This document shows, piece by piece, positions 8,161 to 34,986 of a stretch of DNA of 36,987 bases (position 1 is the stretch's first letter; each line of letters begins with the position of its first letter). The position numbers and the translations under genes are program-made. The stretch comes from Singulisphaera sp. GP187. GTDB lineage: Bacteria; Planctomycetota; Planctomycetia; Gemmatales; Gemmataceae. The stretch is taken from NCBI GenBank assembly GCA_945905925.1, contig CAMDQN010000065.1:1-36987 (forward strand), in the 5' to 3' direction. The notes beneath the pieces were generated by a model. The model did no database searches and was not told the origin of the DNA. It saw only the letters and a program-made list of their open reading frames with translations.

Positions 8161-9273
8161 ATGGCCGATCTCACGAAGCCCGCGCAAGCCTGGAACCTCC
8201 AGTGGGACGCCGACTGGGTGACTGCGGTCACGTTCCTCGGTTCGTCGCGTCGCGTCGCGGCCGGGAACAACCTCGGGCAGATCCTCCTGTGGGAACTCCC
8301 CGACAAGACCGGTGGCGATGCGCCCAAACCCGTTGCGCGGCTCGACGGCCACACCAACGTGATTTCGCGGCTCGCGGCCACGCCCGACGGCAAGACGCTC
8401 ATCTCCACGAGCTACGACCACACCGTTAAGTACTGGGACATCCCCGCGAAGATTCCCGATGCGACGGAACCGATTCTCCTCAACGCGCGCACCATCGAGG
8501 ACACGACGCGCCGCAAATCGAACGGCGCGAAGGTGCCGCCGCCGAACGAAGCGAAGGTGTACGTGCTGAAACCGGTGAAGACGCTCACCGAGCATAAAGA
8601 GTGGATTCTCGGGATGGAGATTTCCCGCGACGGCAAAGCGATGATCACCGGCGACGACGCGGGACACGTCATCATCTGGGACGCCGCAGTTGGTATCGTG
8701 AAGAAGCGGTGGCAACTCGCGAAGGGCTGGGCTTACGCGGTCGCGCTGTCGCCGGATCAGAAGCAAGCGTGCATCACGGAGCGCCTTACGCTCGTGTTCG
8801 ACAGCGGCCGGCACGCGGCGGTGAAGCTCTGGGACGCGACTACCGGCACCGCGACCAAAGACCTCTCCGCGGAGAAGGAGTTCAAGGGCAACCACATGTG
8901 TTCCGCGAGCTACTCGCCGGACGGCAAGGCCCTCGCGATTCTTCGCGGCGGCGAGTCCGGCGGGCTGAGCGGCAAGCCCATTATCCTCGATCCTTCCAGC
9001 GGCAAGATCGTGAAGGAATGCGGGCCGGGCCACCTCGACGGCGGAACCGATCTCGCGTGGCACCCGGACAGCAAGCACCTCGCGTCGAGCGGGCGCGACA
9101 CGACGGTTCGCGTGTGGGACACGACCACGGGCAAACTCGTCTCGGAAGTGGGTAAGGGTCGCGGGGGTCAGTTCAAGGACTGGATCTGCGCGGTCGCGTG
9201 GTCCGCGGACGGCAAGTGGATCGTCGGCGGCGACATGATCGGTGCCGTACAGGTGTGGAGTTTCCCGGCCTAA
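8161..9273 (+). CDS. WD40-repeat protein
   Basis: A 370-residue protein built of WD40 repeats, probably one seven-bladed propeller with some weak blades. Clear repeats are LDGHTNVISRLAATPDGKTL with VKYWDIP, LTEHKEWILGMEISRDGKAM with VIIWDAA, AAVKLWDATTG, LAWHPDSKHLASSGRDTTV with RVWDTTTG, and a final CAVAWSADGKWI with VQVWSFPA. There is no signal peptide or Tat motif, unlike the other three genes in its cluster, so it is predicted to be cytoplasmic unless exported with a partner. AGAGGA precedes the ATG by 5 bases. Its TAA stop (9271-9273) overlaps the arm of the next inverted repeat, so the last codon context is set by that element. Likely a protein-protein scaffold; partner not shown. Confidence 0.9.
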   Translation: MADLTKPAQAWNLQWDADWVTAVTFLGSSRRVAAGNNLGQILLWELPDKTGGDAPKPVARLDGHTNVISRLAATPDGKTLISTSYDHTVKYWDIPAKIPDATEPILLNARTIEDTTRRKSNGAKVPPPNEAKVYVLKPVKTLTEHKEWILGMEISRDGKAMITGDDAGHVIIWDAAVGIVKKRWQLAKGWAYAVALSPDQKQACITERLTLVFDSGRHAAVKLWDATTGTATKDLSAEKEFKGNHMCSASYSPDGKALAILRGGESGGLSGKPIILDPSSGKIVKECGPGHLDGGTDLAWHPDSKHLASSGRDTTVRVWDTTTGKLVSEVGKGRGGQFKDWICAVAWSADGKWIVGGDMIGAVQVWSFPA

Positions 9274-9369
9274 GAGTATTCACCGCAGAGAACGCGGAGG
9301 ACGCGGAGAAGAATTTCACTTTGTTCTCTCTTCTCCGCGTCCTCCGCGTTCTCTGCGGTGAATACTCTT
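9272..9369. repeat. Family-1 stem-loop element, perfect 41-base arms
   Basis: Arms 9272-9312 and 9329-9369 are perfect reverse complements over 41 bases with a 16-base loop. The arm begins AAGAGTATTCACCGCAGAG and continues in nine-base units of the form ACGCGGAGR. The first two bases are the AA of the WD40 stop codon. The shared AAGAGTATT...ACC(A/G)CAGAG start identifies it as the same family as 6638-6820, yet most unit positions differ between the two copies (CACAGAG against CGCGGAG). The hydrolase ATG follows after 20 bases that lack a clear ribosome binding site. Confidence 0.95.
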
Positions 9370-11475: not shown

Positions 11476-12978
11476 TCACGCGGCGCGATTCTCCGCGTCG
11501 CGCGACGCCGGGAACGCCAACGTCGCTTCGCGCTTCGTTCGGGTCGCGTGCCAGCGCACCAGCGCCCACGCGACGAGCGAAGTCCCGAACACCCACCAGT
11601 AGCCCGGCACGTTCCGCATCCACCACGGGCCGACCACCCACGCGCTCGCGGCCAGTGGAACGCCACACGCCGCGAGTACCGCGAAGTCGCGTCGGAACTC
11701 CGGGCGCTCCTTCAGCACGTTCGCGAGTAGCCAAAAGCCGGGCACAAGGAACGGCACGAACCACCGGACCGAGACGCACGCCCCGCCGTGGTTCTTCGAC
11801 AGCACGCCATACATCAGCCAGCCGACCGCGCACCACGCCACGAGCGCGAGTAGTTCCACGCGGTCCCGCGCACAATCGGAGCCGCGACCGTCAGGGAGCG
11901 TCTTGCCCACGCTCCCTGACGGTCGCGGCTCCGACGAACGGCGCCGCAGCACAAACGCTCCGGCGACCAGCGCGAGCAATAGCGGCGGATTGTGCGTGAG
12001 GAATCCTTTCTTCCCGAACAGCAGATCGAGCGTGTACGTGAACTGCGCGAAGTACCGCGTGCGGACCACGCCGGTCATCGTGGTCTCGAACGGGTTGCCC
12101 GGCCACGCAAGGTATTCCGGGTGCATGTTCAGCGGCTTCAGCCAGTCGCCACCGATGGCGAAGTTGATCGCGTGCCCACCGACCACACAGGGGAGCAACG
12201 CGAAGCCACAAGCGGCGACCGCGAAGATGCGGCGTGTGCGAAGCGCGACTACCGTCAGCACCGCCAGCACGAGAGGCGGACCGACGCCGAAGTCCAGGTT
12301 GTAGGCGAATCCCGTGACGAACCCCGCTGCGAGCAGAGAACTCCACGCGGTTCGGCCTTCGCGCGCGGCGTCCGCGATGCGGCACAGGAACACGCAAATC
12401 GCCGCGACTGCACCGAGCTGCGCGATGTGGTTGTTCGCGCTTCGCGTGTACACCGGCAACACGGTGCTGAGCGCGAACGCGCCGAGCCAAATGAGCCGCC
12501 ACTTCGGAGAAAGGCCGACACGCGTTCCGAGGCTCCACATACAGCCGACCGCGACCGCGTACCCGGTGCCGCTCAGCAGCACGCAGATCACCCACGCGAA
12601 CACGTCCGGCCGCGCACTCGGTTTCGGCAGACCGAGTTGCATTAGCCCGCGGTAGGCCACCGCGAGCGGTACGCTCACGAGCGGCGGCTTGTCGGAGTAG
12701 TAGCGGTCGTTGATGTAGAGCTTGTCGAGTGTGCCACGCCGCGCGAGGGTGTTGTCGGGATCATAGGGCGGCGTGCCCTGATCGAAGAGTTCCGCGGGCG
12801 GAGTGAGGAACACGCTTTCGTCGATGCAGAAGGTGTTGCGCTCGACGAGCGATTCGACCGACGCGAGCCGGCTACCGTCGTTCCACGAGGAAGCGAACGG
12901 GCGCGCGCTCGTCGCCGCGCCCGCGAACGCGACCGCCGCCAACACCCACGCCGCAGCCCAGTGATCCGCCCACTTCAT
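11476..12978 (-). CDS. Polytopic membrane protein, GT-C glycosyltransferase-like
   Basis: A 500-residue protein with about 10 hydrophobic segments. The first extracytoplasmic loop holds acidic and aromatic motifs (SSWNDGSRLASVESLVE, then DRYYSDKPPLVSVPLAV). A YxDKPPL loop after the first helix is characteristic of GT39/ArnT-like GT-C enzymes, which use polyprenyl-phosphate sugars. I infer the fold, not the donor or acceptor. Residues ~349-368 (SEPRPSGS...LPDGRGSD) are encoded by a perfect 26-base inverted repeat. They sit in a loop after RRR, probably cytoplasmic, between two membrane helices. The reading frame is intact across it. No other cell-wall genes lie nearby. Confidence 0.78.
   Translation of the reverse strand: MKWADHWAAAWVLAAVAFAGAATSARPFASSWNDGSRLASVESLVERNTFCIDESVFLTPPAELFDQGTPPYDPDNTLARRGTLDKLYINDRYYSDKPPLVSVPLAVAYRGLMQLGLPKPSARPDVFAWVICVLLSGTGYAVAVGCMWSLGTRVGLSPKWRLIWLGAFALSTVLPVYTRSANNHIAQLGAVAAICVFLCRIADAAREGRTAWSSLLAAGFVTGFAYNLDFGVGPPLVLAVLTVVALRTRRIFAVAACGFALLPCVVGGHAINFAIGGDWLKPLNMHPEYLAWPGNPFETTMTGVVRTRYFAQFTYTLDLLFGKKGFLTHNPPLLLALVAGAFVLRRRSSEPRPSGSVGKTLPDGRGSDCARDRVELLALVAWCAVGWLMYGVLSKNHGGACVSVRWFVPFLVPGFWLLANVLKERPEFRRDFAVLAACGVPLAASAWVVGPWWMRNVPGYWWVFGTSLVAWALVRWHATRTKREATLAFPASRDAENRAA
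11876..11934. repeat. Family-3 palindrome inserted in frame in a coding sequence
   Basis: Arms 11876-11901 and 11909-11934 are perfect reverse complements over 26 bases (arm start TCGGAGCCGCGACCG) around a 7-base loop. The core GAGCCGCGACCG...GGGAGCG is shared with the intergenic palindrome at 17927-17986. It lies wholly inside the membrane-protein gene on the minus strand and contributes about 20 residues without a stop. Inserted rather than ancestral origin is inferred from the shared sequence and its low-complexity translation. Confidence 0.9.
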
Positions 12979-13155
12979 CCGCTGTCTCCGCGCGACGCGG
13001 GAAGATAGCGAAGGGCGGCGGGCAACGCAACCGCGAAGAGCGGCGAGTTATTCGCCCGAGGTCAGTTCTCGGTTTGCGTGGATCCTTGCGGTACGTTCGC
13101 TTCGGGATAGAAGTGCTTACGCTGTCCTCAACGCAACTCCAAGGCAGGATTCGCC
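12979..13155. other. Intergenic leader between divergent units
   Basis: No gene is visible here. It is the 5' region of the membrane-protein gene on the minus strand and of the small broken gene at 13156 on the plus strand. I see no confident promoter or hairpin. Together with 13156-13353 it makes a 375-base stretch without an intact gene. Confidence 0.5.
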
Positions 13156-13299
13156 ATGCCCGCTCCGCGTTTTACGCCCGAGGAACTCGACTGACTCCGG
13201 GCACTGACTGCCGAGTGGGGCAAAGTCGTTTCCTATCGAGAATTCGGCGACGACGGACCGGGCCTCGATGTCGACTTCCGTAAGGGAGCGGAAACGTAA
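13156..13299 (+). pseudogene. Short broken gene, possibly a transposase N-terminus
   Basis: ATG 13156 reads MPAPRFTPEELD, then a TGA at 13192-13194, and continues in the same frame as LRALTAEWGKVVSYREFGDD and GPGLDVDF before ending at 13297-13299. The stop sits where Trp (TGG) or a similar codon would fit, and the two halves read as one protein-like sequence. Pattern memory suggests the N-terminus of ISKra4-like planctomycete transposases (EWG...GPGLDVD), but I cannot confirm it. The coding character ends where the family-3 repeat relic (13282-13320) begins, so the gene seems truncated by that repeat. Confidence 0.5.
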
Positions 13300-13320
13300 A
13301 CCGTTCCCTTGCGGTCGCGG
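13282..13320. repeat. Truncated family-3 palindrome relic
   Basis: AAGGGAGCGG at 13282-13291 pairs with CCGTTCCCTT at 13301-13310 with one mismatch. It is followed by GCGGTCGCGG, which is the outer arm seen in the complete copy at 17927-17986. The matching left outer arm is missing, replaced by the broken gene at 13156-13299. Confidence 0.6.
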
Positions 13321-13353
13321 ATCGTTGGAACCGCTCCGCGTTGACCTCGGCGG

Positions 13354-14775
13354 TTACCCCACGACTTCCTTCACGACGCGGCCGTGAACGTCCGTTAAGC
13401 GGAAATCGCGGCCCGCGTACTTGAACGTCAGTTTCTCGTGGTTCAAGCCCAACTGGTGCAAGATCGTCGCGTGCAGGTCGTGCATGTGAACCTTGTTTTC
13501 GACTGCTGCCGCGCCAAACTCGTCGGTCGTGCCGAACGAGAAGCCGGGCTTGAACCCGCCGCCCGCCAGCCACACGGTGAAGCCGCCGGGGTTGTGGTCG
13601 CGACCGGTGCCGTTCTGCTGCGCGTATGGCGTGCGCCCGAACTCGCCGCCCCACCACACGATCGTGTCTTCCAACAGCCCGCGTTTCTTCAGGTCCGCGA
13701 GTAACCCCGCGATCGGCTTATCCACCGCCTTCGCGTGAGTGCCGTGCTGTATGAGGTTCGAGTGCTGGTCCCACGCCGGGTTCGCGGAGTTGTCGCCGTA
13801 GGTCACCTGGATGAATCGCACGCCAGCTTCGCTCAGTCGCCGCGCCATCAGGCACTGCTTCCCGAAGTTGTCCGTCGCCTTCTCGCCGATGCCGTATAGC
13901 TTTTGCGTCTCCTTCGTCTCCTTCGCAATGTCCATCACGTTCGGCGCGTTGTTCTGCATCCGCCACGCGAGTTCATACGACGCGGCCACCGCTTCGAGTT
14001 CCGCGTCACCAGGCTTCGCCTTGAGTTGCTCGGCGTTCAGTTCGCGAAGCAGGTCGAAGTGTTCTTGCGTGGCGCTCGTGGAAAGACCGGGCGCGAGGTT
14101 GCGGATGGTCGCGTCGGCCGCGGTGCCGCCGGCGCGCCCGGCTGGCGTGCCCTGGTAAATCGCCGGCAGGAAGGCGTTGCCGAAGTTCCGCGCGCCGCCG
14201 TTCCCGTAAGAAGGCGCGATGCTGATGAACCCGGGCAGGTTCGCGTTCTCGCTGCCGAGACCGGACAGCACCCAACTCCCCATGCTCGGTCGAATGAAAT
14301 TCGTCGAACCGCAGTGGAGAAACAGCGTGGCCGGACCGTGGGCGACGCCTTCCGTACTCATCGAGTGGATGAAACACAGGTCGTCGATCACGCCGTTCAC
14401 TTCGGGGAAGAGGTCCGATGCCTGCTTACCGGTCTGACCGCGTTTCGCGAACTTCCACAGCGGTTTCATGACGCGTTGGGTGCTGCCGCGCATCCCGGTG
14501 TTCGCGATGACTCGCGCGTCGTCGAACTTGAACTGCTTGCCGTCTTCCTTGTCGAGCATCGGCTTGTAGTCGTAAGAATCGACGTGCGACACGCCACCCT
14601 GCATGAACAGGAAGATGACGCGCTTGGCTTTCGCCTTGTGGTGACTCGCTTTGACCGCGAGCGGATTCGTGGGGGCTGCGGCGCGTGCGTTCTGCGACGC
14701 GAGACCCGCGAGCGCGAGCGCGCCGAAGCCGCACGAGGTTTGGGCCAGGTATTCGCGACGAGAGAGCGGGAGCAT
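13354..14775 (-). CDS. Tat-exported DUF1501 protein (second locus)
   Basis: ATG at 14775 gives 473 residues. The frame runs on upstream through repeat DNA, which is not coding. The start reads MLPLSRREYLAQTSCGFGAL, a twin-arginine-type signal (SRREYL) with a short hydrophobic stretch ending ASQNARA. DUF1501 landmarks are VIFLFMQGGVSHVDSYDYKP, GVAHGPATLFLHCGSTNF, VRFIQVTYGDNSANPAWDQH and WWGGEFGRTPYAQQ with GRDHNPGGF. It ends KFAYAGRDFRLTDVHG-like, the usual tail of this longer DUF1501 type. It follows the cytochrome/DUF1549/DUF1553 gene on the same strand, 202 bases away, the typical two-gene planctomycete arrangement. Function unknown. Confidence 0.94.
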   Translation of the reverse strand: MLPLSRREYLAQTSCGFGALALAGLASQNARAAAPTNPLAVKASHHKAKAKRVIFLFMQGGVSHVDSYDYKPMLDKEDGKQFKFDDARVIANTGMRGSTQRVMKPLWKFAKRGQTGKQASDLFPEVNGVIDDLCFIHSMSTEGVAHGPATLFLHCGSTNFIRPSMGSWVLSGLGSENANLPGFISIAPSYGNGGARNFGNAFLPAIYQGTPAGRAGGTAADATIRNLAPGLSTSATQEHFDLLRELNAEQLKAKPGDAELEAVAASYELAWRMQNNAPNVMDIAKETKETQKLYGIGEKATDNFGKQCLMARRLSEAGVRFIQVTYGDNSANPAWDQHSNLIQHGTHAKAVDKPIAGLLADLKKRGLLEDTIVWWGGEFGRTPYAQQNGTGRDHNPGGFTVWLAGGGFKPGFSFGTTDEFGAAAVENKVHMHDLHATILHQLGLNHEKLTFKYAGRDFRLTDVHGRVVKEVVG

Positions 14776-14812
14776 ATCAGTTCTCGTTAGCGGTGTTGGC
14801 GTGTGCTCTTTG

Positions 14813-14962
14813 CCCTCTCCCCTTGCGGGAGAGGGTCGCCGCGCTTCGCGGCGGGGTGAGGGGTAAGTTTCGCGCGTCAAGTAGGCTTCGCGTGGTCCGT
14901 GTAGCTCAGCGCCCTCACCCGTCGGCGAAGCGCCGACACCCTCTACCCGCAAGGGGCGAGGG
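14813..14962. repeat. Large inverted repeat between the DUF1549 and DUF1501 genes
   Basis: The block 14813-14872 (CCCTCTCCCCTTGCGGGAGA, then CGCCGCGCTTCGCGGCG and GGTGAGGG) recurs in inverted, diverged form at 14911-14962 (GCCCTCACCC, GTCGGCGAAGCGCCGAC, CCCGCAAGGGGCGAGGG). Each half also contains its own small hairpins. Dispersed repeats of this CCCTCTCCC...GGGTGAGGG type are seen in many GC-rich bacteria. It fills most of the 202-base gap between two co-transcribed-looking genes. Confidence 0.8.
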
Positions 14963-14977
14963 AAAAACAGAAGCAAT

Positions 14978-17812
14978 TCAATTCACGTACCGGAACTCCG
15001 CCGACGCGAACAGCGCGTGGAACAGCGCCGCCCACGCGTCCTTCTCGGTCTTGCCCTTCAGGAATCGCGCCGCGATCTCGCGCTCGCCGTCCGTCGGCCC
15101 GCGACCCAGCGCGAGCCGGTATGCGCGTGTTAAACGTGTCGCGTCATCGGCGTGCTTCTCGGCTAGTAGGCGAGCCGCGGCGTGCTTCGACTGATCCAGC
15201 ACGAACGGGTTGTTCATCATGAACAGCGCCTGTGGAGCGACCGTGCCCGCGTTGCGGCGGCCGGTTACCGTACTACTGTCGGCCGCGTCGAACACTTCGA
15301 GCATTTCGGGCATCGAGTTGCGGAACAGCGGCAAGTAAATGCTCCGGCGCACCGAAGTCGCCTTGTAGCCGTAGTCGGCGGCGAGCGTCGCCGGGAACGT
15401 CAGACCGCCGCGGGCGAGGTCGAGTTGTCCGCTGACAGAAAGCGTGGTGTCGCGGATGCACTCGGCTTCGAGGCGCCGACGATTCGCGCGGCCGAAGAGC
15501 CGGTTCTCGGGGTCCGCAACGGTGGCCGCCGCGTCACCGGTCGAACTCTGGCGGTACGTCCGGCTCAGAACGATGTACCGCACCAACTCCTTCGCGCTCC
15601 ATTTCTTGTCCACGAATGTGAGCGCGAGGTGGTCGAGCAGTTCGGGGTTGCTCGGCAGCTCGCCAGTGGTACCGAAGTTGTCCGTGGTGCGCACGATGCC
15701 GTCACCGAGCAGCCAGTGCCACGCGCGGTTTGCGAACACGCGAGCCGTCAGCGGGTTGTTGCTCGAAGCGATCCACTCCGCGAGTTCCTTGCGCCCGCTT
15801 TGCGTCTTCGGGATCGCGGGCACGGTGCCGTGAACCGCGACCGTAAGGAACCCGCGCGGGGCCAATTCGGTCAGCGTGTGGACGCTCCCGCGAACGTGAA
15901 CCTTCGTGTCTTCGATCACCTTTTCTTCGATCACCGACATCGTCACGTCGCGCTTCGGGCCTCTCGCCAGAAGCGATTTCAACTCGGCTTCGAGCGACTT
16001 CACGTCGTCGGGCTGCGCCTTCGGGTCGTTTTGTTCCTTCTTGTCGAGAGGGATGAACACCACCGCGTCCGGGCACACATGCCCCTTCGTCTCCTCGTTC
16101 GAGACGAGTACGTAGGCGATGCCGTTCTTCTCGAAGCGATACTCGCCGAGCGAGATGAACCGGCCGTCGACGGGCGGATTCTTCTTCATGTCCACGGGAA
16201 CGGTCTTGTCGCCATCGGCGCTGGCAACGTGAACCGGTACGTTCGTCGCGCGGTTCGTGCCGGGTGAGTACGCGAGCCGCACCTCGTACTTGCCCGGTGG
16301 CAGCGCTTCGGGCTGGAAGGTAATCGACTTGTCGCCTTTACCCGCGTCGCCGTCGTGAACGTAGCCGGCGCCAATGTACGTCTTGTTGAAGCTCGATACC
16401 GTCCATTCGCCGACCTTCTTCGCATCCACGTCATCGACCACGATACCGGCCACGTCCTTCACCGCGACGATGCCGTTGGCGACCTTCGTTGCGCCTTTCG
16501 CCTTCGCCGCATTCACCTTCGCTTGCAGGACGGCGACTGCGGCTTCGTGTTTTTTGAGCGTGGCTTCGCGATCGGGGTCGGCCGGGAGCGGCACTTCGAG
16601 CCACTTCGACACGTTCGCGGTTTCGAGCGCCCGCACGTTGCGAAGGATGCCCGCGATCGCGTAGTAGTCCTTCGTCGGAATCGGGTCGAACTTGTGGTCG
16701 TGGCACCTCGCGCACGTCACCGTCTGGCCCAAGAAGCCTTTCGTGATGACGTCGAGTTGTTCGTCCACCACGTCCATGCGGAGTTGCTTCTTGTCTTGCT
16801 CTTCGAGGTTGGTGTTGCCGAGTTGCAGGAACGTCGTGGCGATCAGTTTGCGCGCGCGGTCCGGGCTGTCGGCGGAAGGAAGCAGGTCGCCCGCGATTTG
16901 TTCCTTGATGAGTTGATCGAAGGGTACGTCCGCGTTGAACGAGTCGATGACGTAGTCGCGGTAGCGCCACGCCTGGTTGAAGACGAACCCGCGAAGCGTG
17001 ACGGACTCCGCGTAGCGCGCGACGTCGAGCCAGTGCCGACCCCATCGCTCGCCGTAATGCGGACTCGCGAGCAACTTATCGACTAACTTCTCGTAGGCGT
17101 CCGCACTCTTGTCATTCACGAACGCATCGACCTCTTCGGGCGATGGCGGCAACCCGACGAGGTCGTAATAGAGACGTCGAATGAGCGTCGCGCGGTCCGC
17201 GAGCGGTGCCGGCTTCAGCCCCTTCTTCTCCAGCGCAGCGAGAATGAAATTGTCGATCTCGTTCGCGCTCGCCTTCGGCTCGCGGCTAACCGGCACTTGA
17301 GGTCGCTTGGGTAACTGATACGCCCAGAACTTCCGTCCCTCTTCGATGGTCATGCCGACCTGCTTGCGCGGAACGACGGCCATGGCGGTTCGCGGGTCCG
17401 GTGCGCCCATCGCGATCCACTTCTCGAAGTCCTTGATGACTGCGTCCGGGAGCTTGCCCTTCGGCGGCATTTTCAGTTCGTCAGCGTAGTGCAGCGTCTT
17501 CAGCAGGAGGCTCTCGGACGGCTTACCAGGGACGATCGCGGCGCCGGTGTCGCCACCTTTCAGCACACCGTTGCGGGTGTCGAGGAACAGGTTGCCTTTG
17601 AGTTTCTTGTTCTTCTCCGCGTCAGCGGAGTGGCAGCCGGCGCAACTCTCCGTGAGAACCGGCCTGATCTTCTTCTCGAAGAACTCGATACCGGCTTGGT
17701 CCAGTGGCTTCTCGGGCGGTGCGGGGTTCGCCGCGCGGAGTTCCGGCACGGCGGGAGTGGCGAACAGAACCGCGAGCAGAACGAGCAGAACGACAACGCG
17801 CATCGGGGGCAT
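14978..17812 (-). CDS. Secreted PSCyt1-DUF1549-DUF1553 protein with golvesin-like insert
   Basis: A 944-residue protein. ATG 17812 and ATG 17803 are both possible; the second gives a tighter signal peptide (MRVVVLLVLLAVLFATPAVP). A planctomycete cytochrome domain follows, with SCAGCHSAD (Cys 57/60, His 61), GVLKGGDTGAAIVPGKPSES and LKMPPKGKLP. DUF1549 follows (LIRRLYYDLVGLPPSPEE, then CARCHDHKFDPIPTKDYY). A central ~150-residue insert (VDDVDAKKVGEWTVSSF, GKYEVRLAYSPGTNRATNVP, FRFEKNGIAYVLVSNE-like) matches the golvesin C-terminal/Xly-CBD-like beta-sandwich, probably a binding module. DUF1553 closes the protein (NPLTARVFANRAWHWLLGDG, LRRLEAECIRD-like, ending FASAEFRYVN). Its DUF1501 partner is next downstream. 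Role unknown; a periplasmic redox or sugar-binding function is inference. Confidence 0.93.
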   Translation of the reverse strand: MPPMRVVVLLVLLAVLFATPAVPELRAANPAPPEKPLDQAGIEFFEKKIRPVLTESCAGCHSADAEKNKKLKGNLFLDTRNGVLKGGDTGAAIVPGKPSESLLLKTLHYADELKMPPKGKLPDAVIKDFEKWIAMGAPDPRTAMAVVPRKQVGMTIEEGRKFWAYQLPKRPQVPVSREPKASANEIDNFILAALEKKGLKPAPLADRATLIRRLYYDLVGLPPSPEEVDAFVNDKSADAYEKLVDKLLASPHYGERWGRHWLDVARYAESVTLRGFVFNQAWRYRDYVIDSFNADVPFDQLIKEQIAGDLLPSADSPDRARKLIATTFLQLGNTNLEEQDKKQLRMDVVDEQLDVITKGFLGQTVTCARCHDHKFDPIPTKDYYAIAGILRNVRALETANVSKWLEVPLPADPDREATLKKHEAAVAVLQAKVNAAKAKGATKVANGIVAVKDVAGIVVDDVDAKKVGEWTVSSFNKTYIGAGYVHDGDAGKGDKSITFQPEALPPGKYEVRLAYSPGTNRATNVPVHVASADGDKTVPVDMKKNPPVDGRFISLGEYRFEKNGIAYVLVSNEETKGHVCPDAVVFIPLDKKEQNDPKAQPDDVKSLEAELKSLLARGPKRDVTMSVIEEKVIEDTKVHVRGSVHTLTELAPRGFLTVAVHGTVPAIPKTQSGRKELAEWIASSNNPLTARVFANRAWHWLLGDGIVRTTDNFGTTGELPSNPELLDHLALTFVDKKWSAKELVRYIVLSRTYRQSSTGDAAATVADPENRLFGRANRRRLEAECIRDTTLSVSGQLDLARGGLTFPATLAADYGYKATSVRRSIYLPLFRNSMPEMLEVFDAADSSTVTGRRNAGTVAPQALFMMNNPFVLDQSKHAAARLLAEKHADDATRLTRAYRLALGRGPTDGEREIAARFLKGKTEKDAWAALFHALFASAEFRYVN

Positions 17813-17926
17813 CCAGGCGGGCGGGTAAGTCGTGTTGCGAGGGAGAAGGATTCAGGCTTCTATTATGGCGAGTTCGCGGGCGGGAACACAGTCTGAATCC
17901 CGCGAACTTGGCTCGCGGACGCCCAA

Positions 17927-17986
17927 ACGAGCCACGACCGCAAGGGAGTGGGTAACGTTGCCCGCTCCCTTGCGGTCGCGGCTCGT
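17927..17986. repeat. Family-3 palindrome, 30-base arms with no spacer
   Basis: 17927-17956 and 17957-17986 are adjoining reverse complements over 30 bases with three mismatches (consensus ACGAGCCGCGACCGCAAGG then GAGCGGGCAAC). It ends four bases before the stop codon of the LamG/formylglycine-enzyme-like gene on the minus strand, so it lies just after that stop in transcript sense. The core matches the in-gene copy at 11876-11934. All three mismatches can form G-U pairs in one of the two RNA orientations. Confidence 0.9.
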
Positions 17987-17990
17987 CAAG

Positions 17991-19877
17991 TCACTTCACG
18001 GACGGCAGCGCAACCGCGACGCGGAAGCCGAGGTTGCTGTGGCAGAAGTGCGGCGGGTCGGCGTTCCGGCCACCGCTGCGAACGTCCTTCGCGACGTTGC
18101 TCCAACCACCGCCCCGAACCGCGTGCCCGCGCTTCGGGTCGATGTCGCCGGGGTCGGTGGCCGCGTCCTTCGTGTAGGCGCCGAAGTGCGTCGAACAGAA
18201 CTCCCACACGTTCCCGATCGTGTCGTGAAGGCCGAACGCGTTCGGCTTGTAACTGCCCACCGGCGCAACGAACGCGAACCCGTCGTCCATCGGCATCGCG
18301 GCGCGTGGCCAGTCCGGGTGAGTCTTCTTCAATGTGAGATCACACACGTTCGCGACCTTGCCCGTCGCGTCTTCTTCGTCTCCCCACCAGTATCGCGTCG
18401 CGGTTCCGGCGCGGCACGCCCATTCCCACTGCGCTTCGGTCGGCAAACCGTAGACGAGTTGCGCCGTGCTTCCGCCGCGTGAGCCGAGCCACTTACAGAA
18501 GGTGTTCGCGTCGGTCCAACTGACGTGAACAACCGGCTGATCGTTCTTCAGCTCGAACGGCCCCGCGAAGCCGGGCTTCTTCCAGTTCGTGCCGGGTTTG
18601 TGCTTCCACACCGCCTTCTCGTCGTGGGCGTTCCCGCCGTCGTTCTTCTCGCCGTCGGTGGTGTACTTCGCGGCCTCCACAAACGCGGCGAACTGCCCGA
18701 CGGTTAGCTCGTGCTTGCCCAGATAGAAGGGCTGCGTGAGCGTGACCGCGTGTTGTGGTCCCTCCGCGTACTCCGCGCCCTTGTGCCCCGGTTCGTTTTC
18801 GGGCGTACCCATTGTGAAGGTGCCCGGCGGAATCAGCACGAACGTCATGCCGAGGTCGTTGGTGCATTCCACCGGAACACCGAGCCATTTGGCGTAGTCG
18901 CGCTGGTATCGCGCGGCGGTCGCGGCGTCGAACGGAAATTTCGGAGCGGCCGGTGCCGCGCCGGTGCGCGGCGGCAGGCGCTCCGGCAGCGGTTCCTTCT
19001 TTCCTTCCTTTTTCTTCAAGCTCGTGAGCATCCCGGGCTTCTTCTGAAGCGCGACCACTTCCGCAAGCGTCAGCGCACGATCAAAGAGGGCCATCTCGTC
19101 GAGGAGGCCGATGTAACTGATCGCGGTGTAGATGCCGGCTTTCTCGATGTCCCAGCCCATCGCGATTGCTTTGCCCTTCACCTGACCGATTAACTTGCCG
19201 TCGATGTAGAGCGACGTGACCGCGTTGTCCTTCCCAGTGTCGAGGTTCTCCCACGTCAGAACGACGTGATGCCATTCGCCGTCTTTCCAGCCGATCTTTG
19301 GCACGCGCACCATCGGGGCGTTCGGGTCGTTCTCGCCGATGCCCTTCTTGCCTTCGGGGATCACCGGGAACGCGCCGTGCCGCAGATCACGCGGCTTCGC
19401 GTCGTTGAAGTCGAACCACAGCGCGCCGTTGTTCGCGCCTTTCTGCGTAATCTGCACCGGGTCGCAGAAGCCGGTTTTCAGCATCGTGTCGGGGTTGAAG
19501 TTGCACCACATTGAAACGGACCCGCCCCAGCCGTCATTCTTGTACGCGAGGTTCCCCTTCGCGGGCACGAAGATGCGGCCGTTCTTGGGGATGATGTCAA
19601 CAACCTCGAGCGCGCCCGCCGCGATGCCCTTCGTCTTCGCAATGCGGAACGCCTTGTCGGGAAAGCCTTTCTCGACGACGTACTGGCCTTTCTCGGTGGG
19701 GTGGTTGGTGCGCGTGTCGAAGGTGAGTTGTCCCTTCCCGAAGTCGCCTTTCACCTCGTCGTCGAACGACGCATAGAAGGTGACGGCCTTGCGGATTGCC
19801 TTCTCGTCCGCATCCTGGCCAAATGCGGGGAGGTTCACGGCGAAGAGGAGTAAGACGCCGAGCGGGAGAGCACGCAT
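17991..19877 (-). CDS. Secreted LamG + formylglycine-enzyme-like protein
   Basis: ATG 19877 gives 628 residues with a signal peptide (MRALPLGVLLLFAVNLPAFG). The longer frame upstream belongs to a transposase relic. Residues ~30-280 form a LamG/ConA-like domain (VTFYASFDDEVKG, GEWHHVVLTWENLDTG, SLYIDGKLIGQVKG, ISYIGLLDEMALFDRALT). After a Pro/Lys linker comes an FGE-sulfatase (SUMF1) domain: MTFVLIPPGTFTMG, YLGKHELTVGQFAAF, VVHVSWTDANTFCKWL, LPTEAQWEWACRAGT, GNVWEFC, AVRGGGWSN and LGFRVAV. The paired active-site cysteines of true formylglycine-generating enzyme are not in their usual place (GGWSNVAKDVRSGGR has none), so sulfatase maturation is unlikely. It may be a lectin-like or binding version. 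A second LamG-like protein lies at 230-2170. Confidence 0.9.
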   Translation of the reverse strand: MRALPLGVLLLFAVNLPAFGQDADEKAIRKAVTFYASFDDEVKGDFGKGQLTFDTRTNHPTEKGQYVVEKGFPDKAFRIAKTKGIAAGALEVVDIIPKNGRIFVPAKGNLAYKNDGWGGSVSMWCNFNPDTMLKTGFCDPVQITQKGANNGALWFDFNDAKPRDLRHGAFPVIPEGKKGIGENDPNAPMVRVPKIGWKDGEWHHVVLTWENLDTGKDNAVTSLYIDGKLIGQVKGKAIAMGWDIEKAGIYTAISYIGLLDEMALFDRALTLAEVVALQKKPGMLTSLKKKEGKKEPLPERLPPRTGAAPAAPKFPFDAATAARYQRDYAKWLGVPVECTNDLGMTFVLIPPGTFTMGTPENEPGHKGAEYAEGPQHAVTLTQPFYLGKHELTVGQFAAFVEAAKYTTDGEKNDGGNAHDEKAVWKHKPGTNWKKPGFAGPFELKNDQPVVHVSWTDANTFCKWLGSRGGSTAQLVYGLPTEAQWEWACRAGTATRYWWGDEEDATGKVANVCDLTLKKTHPDWPRAAMPMDDGFAFVAPVGSYKPNAFGLHDTIGNVWEFCSTHFGAYTKDAATDPGDIDPKRGHAVRGGGWSNVAKDVRSGGRNADPPHFCHSNLGFRVAVALPSVK

Positions 19878-20072
19878 TGGGGAGACTCCTGACGGGAGCG
19901 GTGGTGGGAGCATGGGCGTGTGTCGGTTGACACGATACCCGCTCGCCCGCCGGGTTGGTAGCTCCCGAAAGACGCGACTATTGACTATTCCCGCTCGGCC
20001 GGTCGTTGGCAAGTATTCACAACGGGTCGGAACCGGTTCGCCGGAAGGAAGCCGCGTCGCGTCGTGCGCCCT

Positions 20073-20213
20073 GACCTTCCCCGGTGGCAACCGGGCGTCG
20101 AACAGGGGCGTGCAGGTGCGGCACCGGAGCATGCGGCAGGTCTTGTTCGGCCCATAACGCGCAGTAACGATGAGGTTGCCGTGCCCGCGTTTCCCCAGAT
20201 CGACACACGCGCG
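20073..20213 (-). pseudogene. Transposase N-terminal relic (IS1-like zinc ribbon)
   Basis: In the frame upstream of the LamG gene the translation reads [35 protein letters not shown], then TPLFDARLPPGKV. This matches the N-terminal zinc-ribbon pattern of IS1-type transposases (CxxxGKRGxGNL, RCRTC, then normally a RFSERKGTPLF segment and a helix). About eight residues between RCRTC and TPLFD are missing and nothing beyond PGKV is recognisable. No terminal inverted repeats are seen. Most of the 545-base space between the LamG gene and proS is otherwise free of genes. Confidence 0.55.
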
Positions 20214-20343
20214 GCGTAAAGCGACGCTCCGAGACAGCAACGGCAAGCCGCTGGTTGCTCACACTGTTGTGTCGCTCACCATCACTCGACTTCGTTGGCG
20301 CCGAGGCCACTGATCACCTTTCGGTCGCGGCGCTGTCCCTATC

Positions 20344-22005: not shown

Positions 22006-22042
22006 CCCGCTCCCTTCACGGCTCGTTTAAAAGAAAAGTGCC

Positions 22043-26753: not shown

Positions 26754-26844
26754 TTCACCGCAGAGACCGCGGAGACCGCGGAGAGAAAACAGGAGAGTTG
26801 AAAACCGACTGTCTTCAAACTCTCTCTGCGGTCTCTGCGGTGAA
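26754..26844. repeat. Family-1 stem-loop between asd and truA, imperfect
   Basis: Arms 26754-26770 and 26828-26844 are reverse complements over 17 bases (TTCACCGCAGAGACCGC). Units CCGCGGAGA follow in the left arm. An inner pair GAGAGTTGAA / TTCAAACTCTC around the loop completes a long hairpin. The left flank GAAGAGTGTTCACCGCAGAG matches the other family-1 starts, but the right flank (GCAGTTTTTCACC in complement) has diverged. It begins 8 bases after the asd stop and ends 11 bases before truA, whose start has no clear SD. Confidence 0.85.
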
Positions 26845-26855
26845 AAACTGCTTCC

Positions 26856-27635
26856 ATGCGTAACCTCCAACTCACCATCCGCTACGACGGGACGGACTTC
26901 TTCGGCTGGCAAACGCAGCCCGGCCGGCGCACGGTGCAAGAGACCATCGAGAAGGCAATCGTCGAGATCACACGCGAGGATCGCGTGCGGCTGAACTGTA
27001 GTGGCCGCACGGATTCCGGTGTTCACGCGGTCGGGCAGGTTGCGAACGTCTACACCGCGAGCAAGCTTTCGTGTGAAGTTCTGCTCAAGGCGATCAACGC
27101 GAAGTTGTCCGAAGACGTGAGCGTGCGCGAAGTGGTCGAGGTGCCGCAGGGCTTCTGCGCGAACAAGGACGCGGTGCGGAAGAAGTACCGCTACGTCATT
27201 CAGGACGGACGCATTCAAGACCCATTCATGCGGAAGTACGCGTGGTTCGTGCGGCAGAATCTGGACGTGGAAGCGATGCTGCGAGCGTCGCGGTGCTTGG
27301 TCGGTCGGCACGATTTCCGGTGCTTCGAGACGGAGTGGCCGAACCGCCTCACAAGCGTGCGGACCATCATGCACCTGAGCGTGAACCGGTTCGGCGACTG
27401 TATCTGGATCGATGTGGAGGCGAACGGCTTCCTCTATAACATGGTGCGGGCGATCGCGGGGAGCTTGGTGCAAGTGGGCCGCGGATTCTGGCCGGAAACG
27501 CAGATCGAAGATGTGTTGACGGCGATGGATCGTAGACTGGCGGGGCCGACGGCGCCCCCAGAGGGATTGTTCCTGATGCGAGTGACTTATCAGCAGTCAG
27601 GAGACAGGAATCAGGAATCAGGAGAGACCTGTTAG
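26856..27635 (+). CDS. truA: tRNA pseudouridine synthase A, with repeat-derived tail
   Basis: Makes pseudouridine at positions 38-40 of the tRNA anticodon arm. The protein has 259 residues. MRNLQLTIRYDGTDFFGWQ starts the domain; catalytic Asp is Asp 53 in NCSGRTDSGVHAVGQVA. KKYRYVIQDG, GRHDFRCFE and EANGFLYNMVRAIAGSLVQV are standard family runs. The natural core ends near GLFLMRVTY. The last ~13 residues (QQSGDRNQESGETC) come from a TCAGGA-rich short repeat at 27596-27627. The TAG stop lies inside the next stem-loop, so the gene end has been rewritten by repeat DNA. aroA follows on the same strand. Confidence 0.96.
   Translation: MRNLQLTIRYDGTDFFGWQTQPGRRTVQETIEKAIVEITREDRVRLNCSGRTDSGVHAVGQVANVYTASKLSCEVLLKAINAKLSEDVSVREVVEVPQGFCANKDAVRKKYRYVIQDGRIQDPFMRKYAWFVRQNLDVEAMLRASRCLVGRHDFRCFETEWPNRLTSVRTIMHLSVNRFGDCIWIDVEANGFLYNMVRAIAGSLVQVGRGFWPETQIEDVLTAMDRRLAGPTAPPEGLFLMRVTYQQSGDRNQESGETC
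27596..27627. repeat. Short degenerate tandem repeat at the end of truA
   Basis: Four or five units of about seven bases based on ATCAGGA (AGTCAGGA, GACAGGA, ATCAGGA, ATCAGGA, GAGA) run from the end of the truA core up to the left arm of the palindrome at 27628. It supplies codons for the protein's last residues. Confidence 0.7.
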
Positions 27636-27693
27636 CCGCAAGCCGCAGGCGAGCGCGTCACTTCGCGCTCGCCTGCGGCTTGCGGCTAACAGG
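27628..27693. repeat. Family-2 perfect 30-base stem, 6-base loop
   Basis: 27628-27657 and 27664-27693 are perfect reverse complements over 30 bases (arm start CCTGTTAGCCGCAAGCCGC) with loop TCACTT. The truA stop TAG (27633-27635) is inside the left arm, and the aroA start is 12 bases after the right arm. A stem this long in an operon-like junction with no T-run would act more like an RNA processing or stability signal than a classical terminator. Confidence 0.95.
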
Positions 27694-34207: not shown

Positions 34208-34840
34208 GTGACCCCTGACCAGATTGCCGCACACTTATCCGTTAATGCCTACGGTTCGTTCATGCTAACGGACGCGATCCGTCCGGGGGCCGCGATTCCG
34301 GTGCGCCCGCGTCAGGGCTACCGCACGGAGGTCTTCCGCGACCACCGCGCGAAGTTGCGCCTGCCGATGCTCTCGGCGGCTGTCTCCGCGGAACGCTTAT
34401 TCGAGACGTTCCTGGCGCTGCTCGAACCGCTCGGTGAGGTGGTTCACGTTGTACTGGAGAGCAGCCACGGGGCGAGCGCCAACGGGCACACCGACCTGCG
34501 CCGCGAACACATCGACCTGGCAGTTCTCGCGAGTCACTTCTGCGACTTCGAGGAACTGCTCACGCACGACGGCTGCACCGGGGTCGCGGTGCTCGCCGAC
34601 CGAAAGCCGATCGAAGTGCAATTCGACGAACACAAGCTGTTCCACATCTACGCGCCGAACCTGAAGCCGTTCCGCAGGGTACTGCGAGCACAAGGCGTGA
34701 AGCGAAGGGCGATTCTGCCGCTGATCTCCGAGGCCGAACACCTGCACCACACAACGGACGACTTCGCGGGCGACTTCCGCCAGCTCGCGATGCGCGCCGG
34801 TGTCGGCGACTTCGACCGCGTCTTCAGCGACGAGATGTAA
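34208..34840 (+). CDS. Unrecognised 210-residue soluble protein
   Basis: GTG 34208 is preceded by GAGGTG at SD distance, and the frame begins MTPDQIAAHLSVNAYGSFML. There is no signal peptide or membrane segment. A two-part alpha/beta composition is seen: GEVVHVVLESSHGASANGHT, DLRREHIDLAVLASHFCDFE, GVAVLADRKPIEVQFDEHK and FHIYAPNLKPFRRVL. I do not recognise the family. It is probably conserved in planctomycetes, judging from its regular codon use. Its stop overlaps by one base the left arm of the palindrome 34840-34986, which separates it from the convergent SMR gene. Confidence 0.78.
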   Translation: MTPDQIAAHLSVNAYGSFMLTDAIRPGAAIPVRPRQGYRTEVFRDHRAKLRLPMLSAAVSAERLFETFLALLEPLGEVVHVVLESSHGASANGHTDLRREHIDLAVLASHFCDFEELLTHDGCTGVAVLADRKPIEVQFDEHKLFHIYAPNLKPFRRVLRAQGVKRRAILPLISEAEHLHHTTDDFAGDFRQLAMRAGVGDFDRVFSDEM

Positions 34841-34986
34841 CGAAGACAAAACGAAGAGCATCCCACGCAAAGGCGCAGAGACGCAAAGAAGACATGAAGA
34901 GCAGAGTTCTTTGAAGAACAGTCTTTTCTCTTGTCTTCTTTGCGTCTCTGCGCCTTTGCGTGAGATGCTCTTCGTTTTGTCTTCGT
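34840..34986. repeat. Family-1 stem-loop filling a convergent gap stop to stop
   Basis: Arms 34840-34894 and 34932-34986 are reverse complements over 55 bases with one mismatch, around a 37-base loop. The arm reads ACGAAGACAAAACGAAGAGC, then units CACGCAAAGG, CGCAGAG, ACGCAAAGA. The first base is the final A of the upstream TAA, and the last base is the outermost base of the SMR stop codon on the other strand. The element therefore fills the whole intergenic space. Confidence 0.95.

Follow-up and report, generated by a model that had tools for sequence, protein, structure and literature searches.

The 36,987-nucleotide stretch of DNA analyzed here (the window) contains a minus-strand open reading frame (11476-12978) for a GT-C-like membrane protein of 500 amino acids, and a perfect palindrome lies in frame within this gene. 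The locus raises the question of where such a palindrome comes from, and how a protein gene can take it up and remain a gene. The palindrome spans 11876-11934. Its two arms (11876-11901 and 11909-11934) form a perfect inverted repeat of 26 bp each around a 7-nt loop (11902-11908), and on the minus strand it supplies residues 349-368 of the protein. This agrees with the preliminary description, which had reported a repeat of this size in the GT-C-like gene and about 20 encoded residues. The RNA fold of 11860-11950 has a z value of -9.06.

Copies of the same arm occur elsewhere. The arm AGCCGCGACCGTNAGGGAGCG has 5 matches in the window with up to 3 mismatches, compared with a mean of 0.00 in 100 shuffles. 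The host genome contains 67 matches with up to 2 mismatches, which group into about 45 places, while a control with the reversed pattern gave 0. Chance is ruled out for these arm matches in both the window and the host genome. One further family copy (17927-17986) lies outside genes, between two minus-strand ORFs (14978-17812 and 17991-20246), exactly as had been proposed. Two relics were also part of the earlier proposal. The one placed at 13282-13320 is real, albeit with a different 3' limit: it is a decayed copy (13282-13322) with one arm at 13302-13322 that has 3 mismatches and a second, shortened arm. The other, at about 22006-22028, could not be established; it requires 6 substitutions, and with so many allowed the window gives 116 matches. 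A small deletion might account for the poor fit at this site.

A role of the palindrome at 11876-11934 as a terminator is ruled out by its position inside a conserved frame. In a simple scan, 11476-18200 contained 9 terminator-like sites, compared with 7.3 in shuffled sequences, and none of them is at the palindrome. A known structured RNA is also ruled out; at the Rfam gathering threshold the window and four transposase loci gave 0 matches. The palindrome had no match at E 1e-3 among the PLSDB plasmids.

The window contains additional hairpins. A perfect one with 30-bp arms (27628-27693) has a TTAGCCGCAAGCCGCAGGCGAGCGCG core, and the same core brackets a host Y1 transposase gene on contig C29 (L420). 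This combination points to a second REP-like family in the host, with its transposase present. Other repeat families are apparently represented by three long hairpins, whose sequence is TTCACCGCAGAGA-like or ACGCAAAGGCGCAGAGACGC-like; they are located at 9272-9369 (41-nt perfect arms), 26754-26844 (22-nt arms, 95%) and 34840-34986 (58-nt arms, 97%).

Exact arms were found in 22 of 59 genomes, including 16 of the 19 genomes of the genus, the host among them. Among GTDB genomes the full hairpin occurs in Planctomycetota, in Acidobacteria and in MAGs labelled Chloroflexi and Proteobacteria, in at least 116 stretches. The label of a MAG may be wrong for an individual contig; the LacPavin and NC_groundwater_1442 MAGs have the hairpin on several contigs each. 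Four IMG/VR contigs (L423-L426) also carry the full hairpin, and these are possibly vehicles or misclassified host DNA.

The two arms of a hairpin resemble each other more than the arm pattern requires. The pattern leaves two bases free, and these agree between the arms in 126 of 157 distinct hairpins, compared with 24.8 after shuffling (sd 4.5). The same holds within genomes, where 62 of 72 hairpins agree versus 35.2 in shuffles (sd 3.0); this count covers genomes with at least five hairpins and leaves out contig loci that are not assigned to a genome. We infer from this symmetry that copying involves the whole hairpin, or else that one arm serves to repair the other. The tetranucleotide at the hairpin foot is CnGA in 151 of 314 arms and ACGA in 126, and the three bases 5' of GCC are CGA, AGA or GGA in 298 of the 314. 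Longer forms exist as well. A type A element in the host (GCGTAGCGTCTGGTC..palindrome..CCGCTACGAATTTTCTGAAAGCGC) has similar flanks in many copies, e.g. L008, L016 and L096, and in genome G001 the palindrome is embedded in a longer imperfect palindrome. In genome G009 (L113, 1640-2600) the palindrome is seemingly split by an insertion-like stretch with the ends CAGTAGTTTCAAGG..CCTTGAAACTACTG; this stretch also includes an apparent lox linker and a run of N, which make the assembly doubtful there.

For a comparison of the loop we fetched 29 other homologues of the 500-amino-acid protein from relatives. At this position 27 of them have no arm with fewer than 5 mismatches; two of these (L043 and L044) have longer loops, which are unrelated to the palindrome. 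The close homologues from G015 and G003 have four residues where the host has 26. The host gain of 66 nt compares with a palindrome of 59 bp, and a clean target duplication is absent. Residues similar to those of the host occur at the loop in two homologues, and both of these have nucleotide arms: G002 has two arms of a different subtype (AACGAGCC.., CAAGGG) and G005 has one arm only. None of the homologues thus has the segment without the palindrome, which the preliminary description had named as the refuting case. In the host, in G002 and in G005 the inserts are all read in frame as EPRP(S/Q)GS. The homologues hence bear out the earlier view of the segment as an insertion, and they support the conclusion that it is a copy of the dispersed palindrome, inserted in frame and tolerated. 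A tree of the GT-C proteins, computed from 18 rows with the insert columns excluded, requires three changes for the three insert carriers and rejects a single clade (p-AU 0.0035); the strongly supported branches alone stay compatible with one origin. This analysis showed that related palindromes landed separately at one GT-C loop in the host, G002 and G005.

The protein itself matches no Pfam family well (DUF6077 at E 0.019). Its AlphaFold model, based on 26 sequences, has a pLDDT of 88.9, and the best fold in a Foldseek search of the PDB is ArnT (E 1.3e-4, TM 0.47); other GT-C enzymes are also near, and two matches only were under 0.001. The model places the insert in a low-confidence loop (ten-residue blocks at 54 and 55) between helices 332-345 and 368-393. 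With the insert included, the loop (345-373), which had been proposed as probably cytoplasmic and is possibly so, contains 8 K/R and 4 D/E. The 132 codons 3' of the insert have no stop and no frameshift. In comparisons with three relatives dN/dS is 0.24-0.29 in this part and 0.14-0.19 in the part 5' of the insert; a pair of homologues without the insert gave 0.23 in the same 3' part. The values of 0.24-0.29 after the insert indicate that the rest of the GT-C frame is under constraint.

The GT-C gene is not the only gene with an in-frame copy. A second in-frame hairpin of the host lies in a PVC-type heme protein (TIGR02604 and TIGR02603), where it is read in a different frame (SRDRKGA..EPLSRGRGS). 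In the heme protein of G002 there is also an insert, whose borders match those in the host and whose loop is related. The homolog from G003, which is 83% identical to the host protein over the 333 amino acids searched, has no insert and a different short loop. In G015 the heme gene (L408) is out of frame at the loop that bears the palindrome in the host and G002, possibly because of decay or an assembly error. Furthermore, the MAG Phycisphaerales Emb289P4bin17 (G069) has two in-frame hairpins, one within a COX15-CtaA match, read in the third frame, and the other within an ACR_tran match. An HlyD-like protein of this MAG contains SLPDGRGSD, encoded by a half element. All three reading frames of the palindrome are therefore used across the in-frame cases, which indicates that no single peptide is what is kept.

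Such insertions are rare, and most of the copies that we saw lie between genes. In-frame hairpins inside genes account for 4 of 237 classified non-edge clusters (36 from the host, 17 from G001, 15 from G002, 23 from G012, 23 from mixed relatives and 123 from named contigs; 33 edge clusters were excluded), in a non-random sample of copies that was classified by a threshold on codon usage and not by annotation. The inserts of G002 and G005 at both loops (GT-C and heme) came from the homologue searches and stand outside this sample. The four hairpins belong to 9 clusters of the type 'intragenic open'; the remaining five are single arms with up to 3 mismatches and were left uncounted. Also uncounted were one 'intragenic stop' cluster (L024) and eight clusters of the type 'same strand, frame changes'; among these nine the sequence was seen for L024, L184 and L186 only. 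A looser classifier had in addition returned L162 (in frame), L229 (stop) and L200 and L231 (frameshift), which looked like antisense or spurious frames and were not counted; L167, with a stop in the element, was likewise left out of the counts. Another uncounted locus, L330 (a TPP enzyme, FPAPSRSRLF), possibly contains a short remnant of the palindrome. An unusual lack of stop codons in the palindrome was considered and rejected; the element has on average 3.7 open frames of 6, compared with 4.1 in shuffles.

Next we turn to the enzyme that could move the element. Y1 transposases in general (PF01797) are present in 48 of the 59 genomes. The mere presence of any Y1 gene was rejected as an explanation, because G008 has 7 such genes and no arm while G007 has none and 28 arms. 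The best-scoring Y1 genes were also rejected as mobilizers: among 20 loci only L140, from the copy-rich G002, has a clear copy within 1.5 kb. Matches at six others have 4 mismatches and were taken as chance, and no copy was found near the best-scoring Y1 gene of the host (on C25). It is a weaker-scoring Y1 gene that is bracketed by the palindrome, in G012, G002 and G031. We used the G012 protein (P0002; Y1_Tnp score 33.5 bits, cut-off 23) as a query for homologues and inspected their flanks, in one round at 30 loci from the 40 matches listed. Among 59 loci with a P0002 homologue, in which two pairs represent one gene each, the palindrome occurs on both sides in 11 and on one side in 1; L340 and L360 were left out of this count. 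The 11 bracketed genes are spread over 10 genomes of Planctomycetota, Acidobacteria and MAGs labelled Proteobacteria. There is one each in G012, G002, G003 and G031 and in Planctomycetaceae UBA4732 and Planctomycetia SED3; Acidobacteria contribute Solibacter RYN_21 (one) and Bryobacterales palsa_129 (two genes), and MAGs with proteobacterial labels contribute Proteobacteria BP5.bin118 and Gammaproteobacteria LacPavin (one each). The one-sided locus (L339), from Acidobacteria NC_groundwater_990, is close to a contig end. All 12 loci with flanking hairpin copies are outside the host assembly. The transposase match in G003 holds one TGA. In G031 the last residues of the transposase (EPRP) and its stop codon come from the flanking palindrome, and in G012 the stop codon is immediately 5' of it.

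Sister palindromes are present at several homologues elsewhere, e.g. GAGCCCGAGCGC.AGCGAGG in G008, the genome without an exact arm; at many other homologue loci a hairpin scan of the flanks found none. In a tree of 39 transposases (14 of 53 rows, either repeats or too divergent, had been removed) 4 changes suffice for the palindrome label, compared with 11.1 after shuffling, and 0 of 500 shuffles were as low; L360 entered this tree mislabelled as 'core' and is really of the sister type. The three genomes with the most arms (520, 214 and 177; n=59) are all among the four in which a gene flanked on both sides is known. A rank test of arm number against the flanked gene gave p 0.0001, and 0.011 within the genus, in a comparison that ignores relatedness.

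The flanked genes have the features of a Y1 (HUH) transposase with NHVH, W[TA] and Y....Q motifs. In an alignment of 22 rows HxH, Y149 and Q154 are invariant, and the NHVH motif varies to THVH, RHVH and SHVH. The best NCBIfam match of P0002 is REP_Tyr_transpos, albeit below the cut-off (30 of 80 bits), and the predicted structure resembles IS200 structures and TnpA-REP 4er8. A cognate transposase was not found in the host assembly, which gave two weak profile matches only; one of them, the Y1 gene on C29, adjoins the other palindrome family. The complete genomes G001 (77 arms) and G007 (28 arms) gave no match to P0002 or to the A2 profile, and the Phycisphaerales MAG with in-frame copies gave none to P0002. 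The search with P0002 covered 24 palindrome-bearing genomes; a match was present in 18 and a flanked gene in 7.

Together, these data make it probable that the segment in the GT-C gene is a non-autonomous REP-like palindrome, which has been spread by a class-3-like REP-associated tyrosine (HUH, Y1) transposase. Alternatively, the palindromes could be unconnected with the tyrosine transposase, either as MITEs of some other insertion sequence or as a separate RPE-like family. The copies in the host, G001, G007 and G069, where the cognate gene was not found, are consistent with this, as is the presence of some copies within longer units (type A in the host, the longer imperfect palindrome in G001). 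However, exactly this palindrome brackets 11 transposase genes in 10 genomes, and relatives of these genes have sister palindromes. An inspection by eye of two wide-spaced arm pairs in G009 also argues against a MITE, since one pair is split by the insertion-like stretch with its own ends and the other encloses no obvious transposase. We consider an origin of this kind quite unlikely.

A different doubt concerns the gene, which could be decaying, with a protein broken by the insert and a frame that is open by a passing accident. Intragenic copies are indeed rare, and dN/dS is higher after the insert than before it. Nevertheless, the pair without insert reaches a similar value in the same part, the frame continues past the insert without a stop or frameshift, the insert is located between two helices, and the loop received in-frame inserts in three species; decay is thus unlikely, if somewhat less so than a MITE. 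Selection for the added peptide, as a useful linker or tag, would explain why one loop was hit in three species, always in the frame EPRP(S/Q)GS, and why the heme protein of two species has in-frame inserts with matching borders. Yet other genes read the remaining two frames, G005 retains a single arm, and a permissive or preferred landing site accounts for the repeated hits equally well. We regard a selected function as the least probable of these alternatives.

The reading as a transposase-borne REP-like palindrome suggests the following scheme. The enzyme would recognize the single-stranded hairpin, cleave the DNA at the hairpin foot and insert the element at a new place; this chemistry, like the movement of the palindrome and the translation of the inserted peptide, is deduced from sequences. 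A landing inside a gene would be rare, and where the frame is left open and the target is a flexible loop, the gene would survive with roughly 20-28 added residues. The host may have lost its transposase, or its assembly may miss the gene; this is a guess. Our confidence in this mechanism is slightly lowered by the Phycisphaerales MAG and by the fact that most of the 24 searched genomes have no flanked gene. A bolder interpretation is that one transposase-and-hairpin system acts as a natural linker-insertion mutagen across phyla and adds ready-made peptides some 20 residues long to protein loops, with the same loops receiving or retaining them time and again. It would span Planctomycetota, Acidobacteria, a Chloroflexi MAG and proteobacterial MAGs, in which the hairpin core is nearly the same, and peptides common to unrelated proteins of different lineages would then go back to shared mobile DNA. 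We think that this is improbable.

A protein-coding palindrome of the RPE type is now tied to a candidate mobilizing enzyme. Two questions thereby become open to testing: do such enzymes still mobilize REPs, and are the inserts put to use or only tolerated? In practice, odd planctomycete peptides such as EPRPSGS, LPDGRGSD or SLTVAA can be translated mobile DNA. In the open-licence literature we found no paper on in-frame class 3 repeats (main texts) and none that combines Gemmata with REPs; the palindrome sequence gave a single 12-base string match in open-licence papers, which was taken as chance.

The parallel with Rickettsia palindromic elements, which the preliminary description had drawn, is valid as an analogy: these are likewise dispersed palindromes that are tolerated in frame in protein genes, and the insertion into otherwise conserved proteins is found here as well. 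It does not extend to identity. According to the available portions of the reports, the Rickettsia elements are about 100-150 bp long and occur in Rickettsia and Wolbachia (PMC10969869, PMC3767692), whereas the element described here has 59 bp, occurs in other phyla and has a candidate mobilizing gene; it matches a class-3-like transposase repeat. Intragenic REPs are known from the GTAG and CGTC families; many of these REPs encode 20-30 residues, and in two Xanthomonas species recB is interrupted by REPs at roughly one position (Di Nocera et al. 2013, PMC3733652, in excerpt). The palindromes studied here are likewise found inside genes; they differ from those REPs, as far as the excerpt describes them, in tag and transposase class, and none of the few in-frame cases is a repair gene. 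No terminal GTAG or CGTC tag was found at the hairpin foot, where 298 of 314 arms have CGA, AGA or GGA before GCC.

The closest known system is 'class 3' in Quentin et al. 2018 (PMC6006769); the palindrome is most likely the repeat of a similar REP-associated tyrosine transposase. The accessible part of that paper describes class 3 TnpA-Y1 genes as flanked by 'atypical secondary structures' and gives a hairpin number of about 600 for Solibacter usitatus. The likeness to this partial description, judged by motifs and taxa, comprises the occurrence in Planctomycetes, Acidobacteria and Proteobacteria, the NHVH, W[TA] and Y....Q motifs, the gene-flanking hairpins and the high copy number. The class 3 foot is given there as CnGA, compared, in a register that may differ from that of the paper, with CnGA in 151 and ACGA in 126 of 314 arms here. 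In-frame copies in unrelated genes are not given in that part of the class 3 description, and they are present here. In-frame REPs have thus already been published for other REP families; what is new is that a repeat of the class 3 type is the inserted element, and that it occurs repeatedly at one protein loop.
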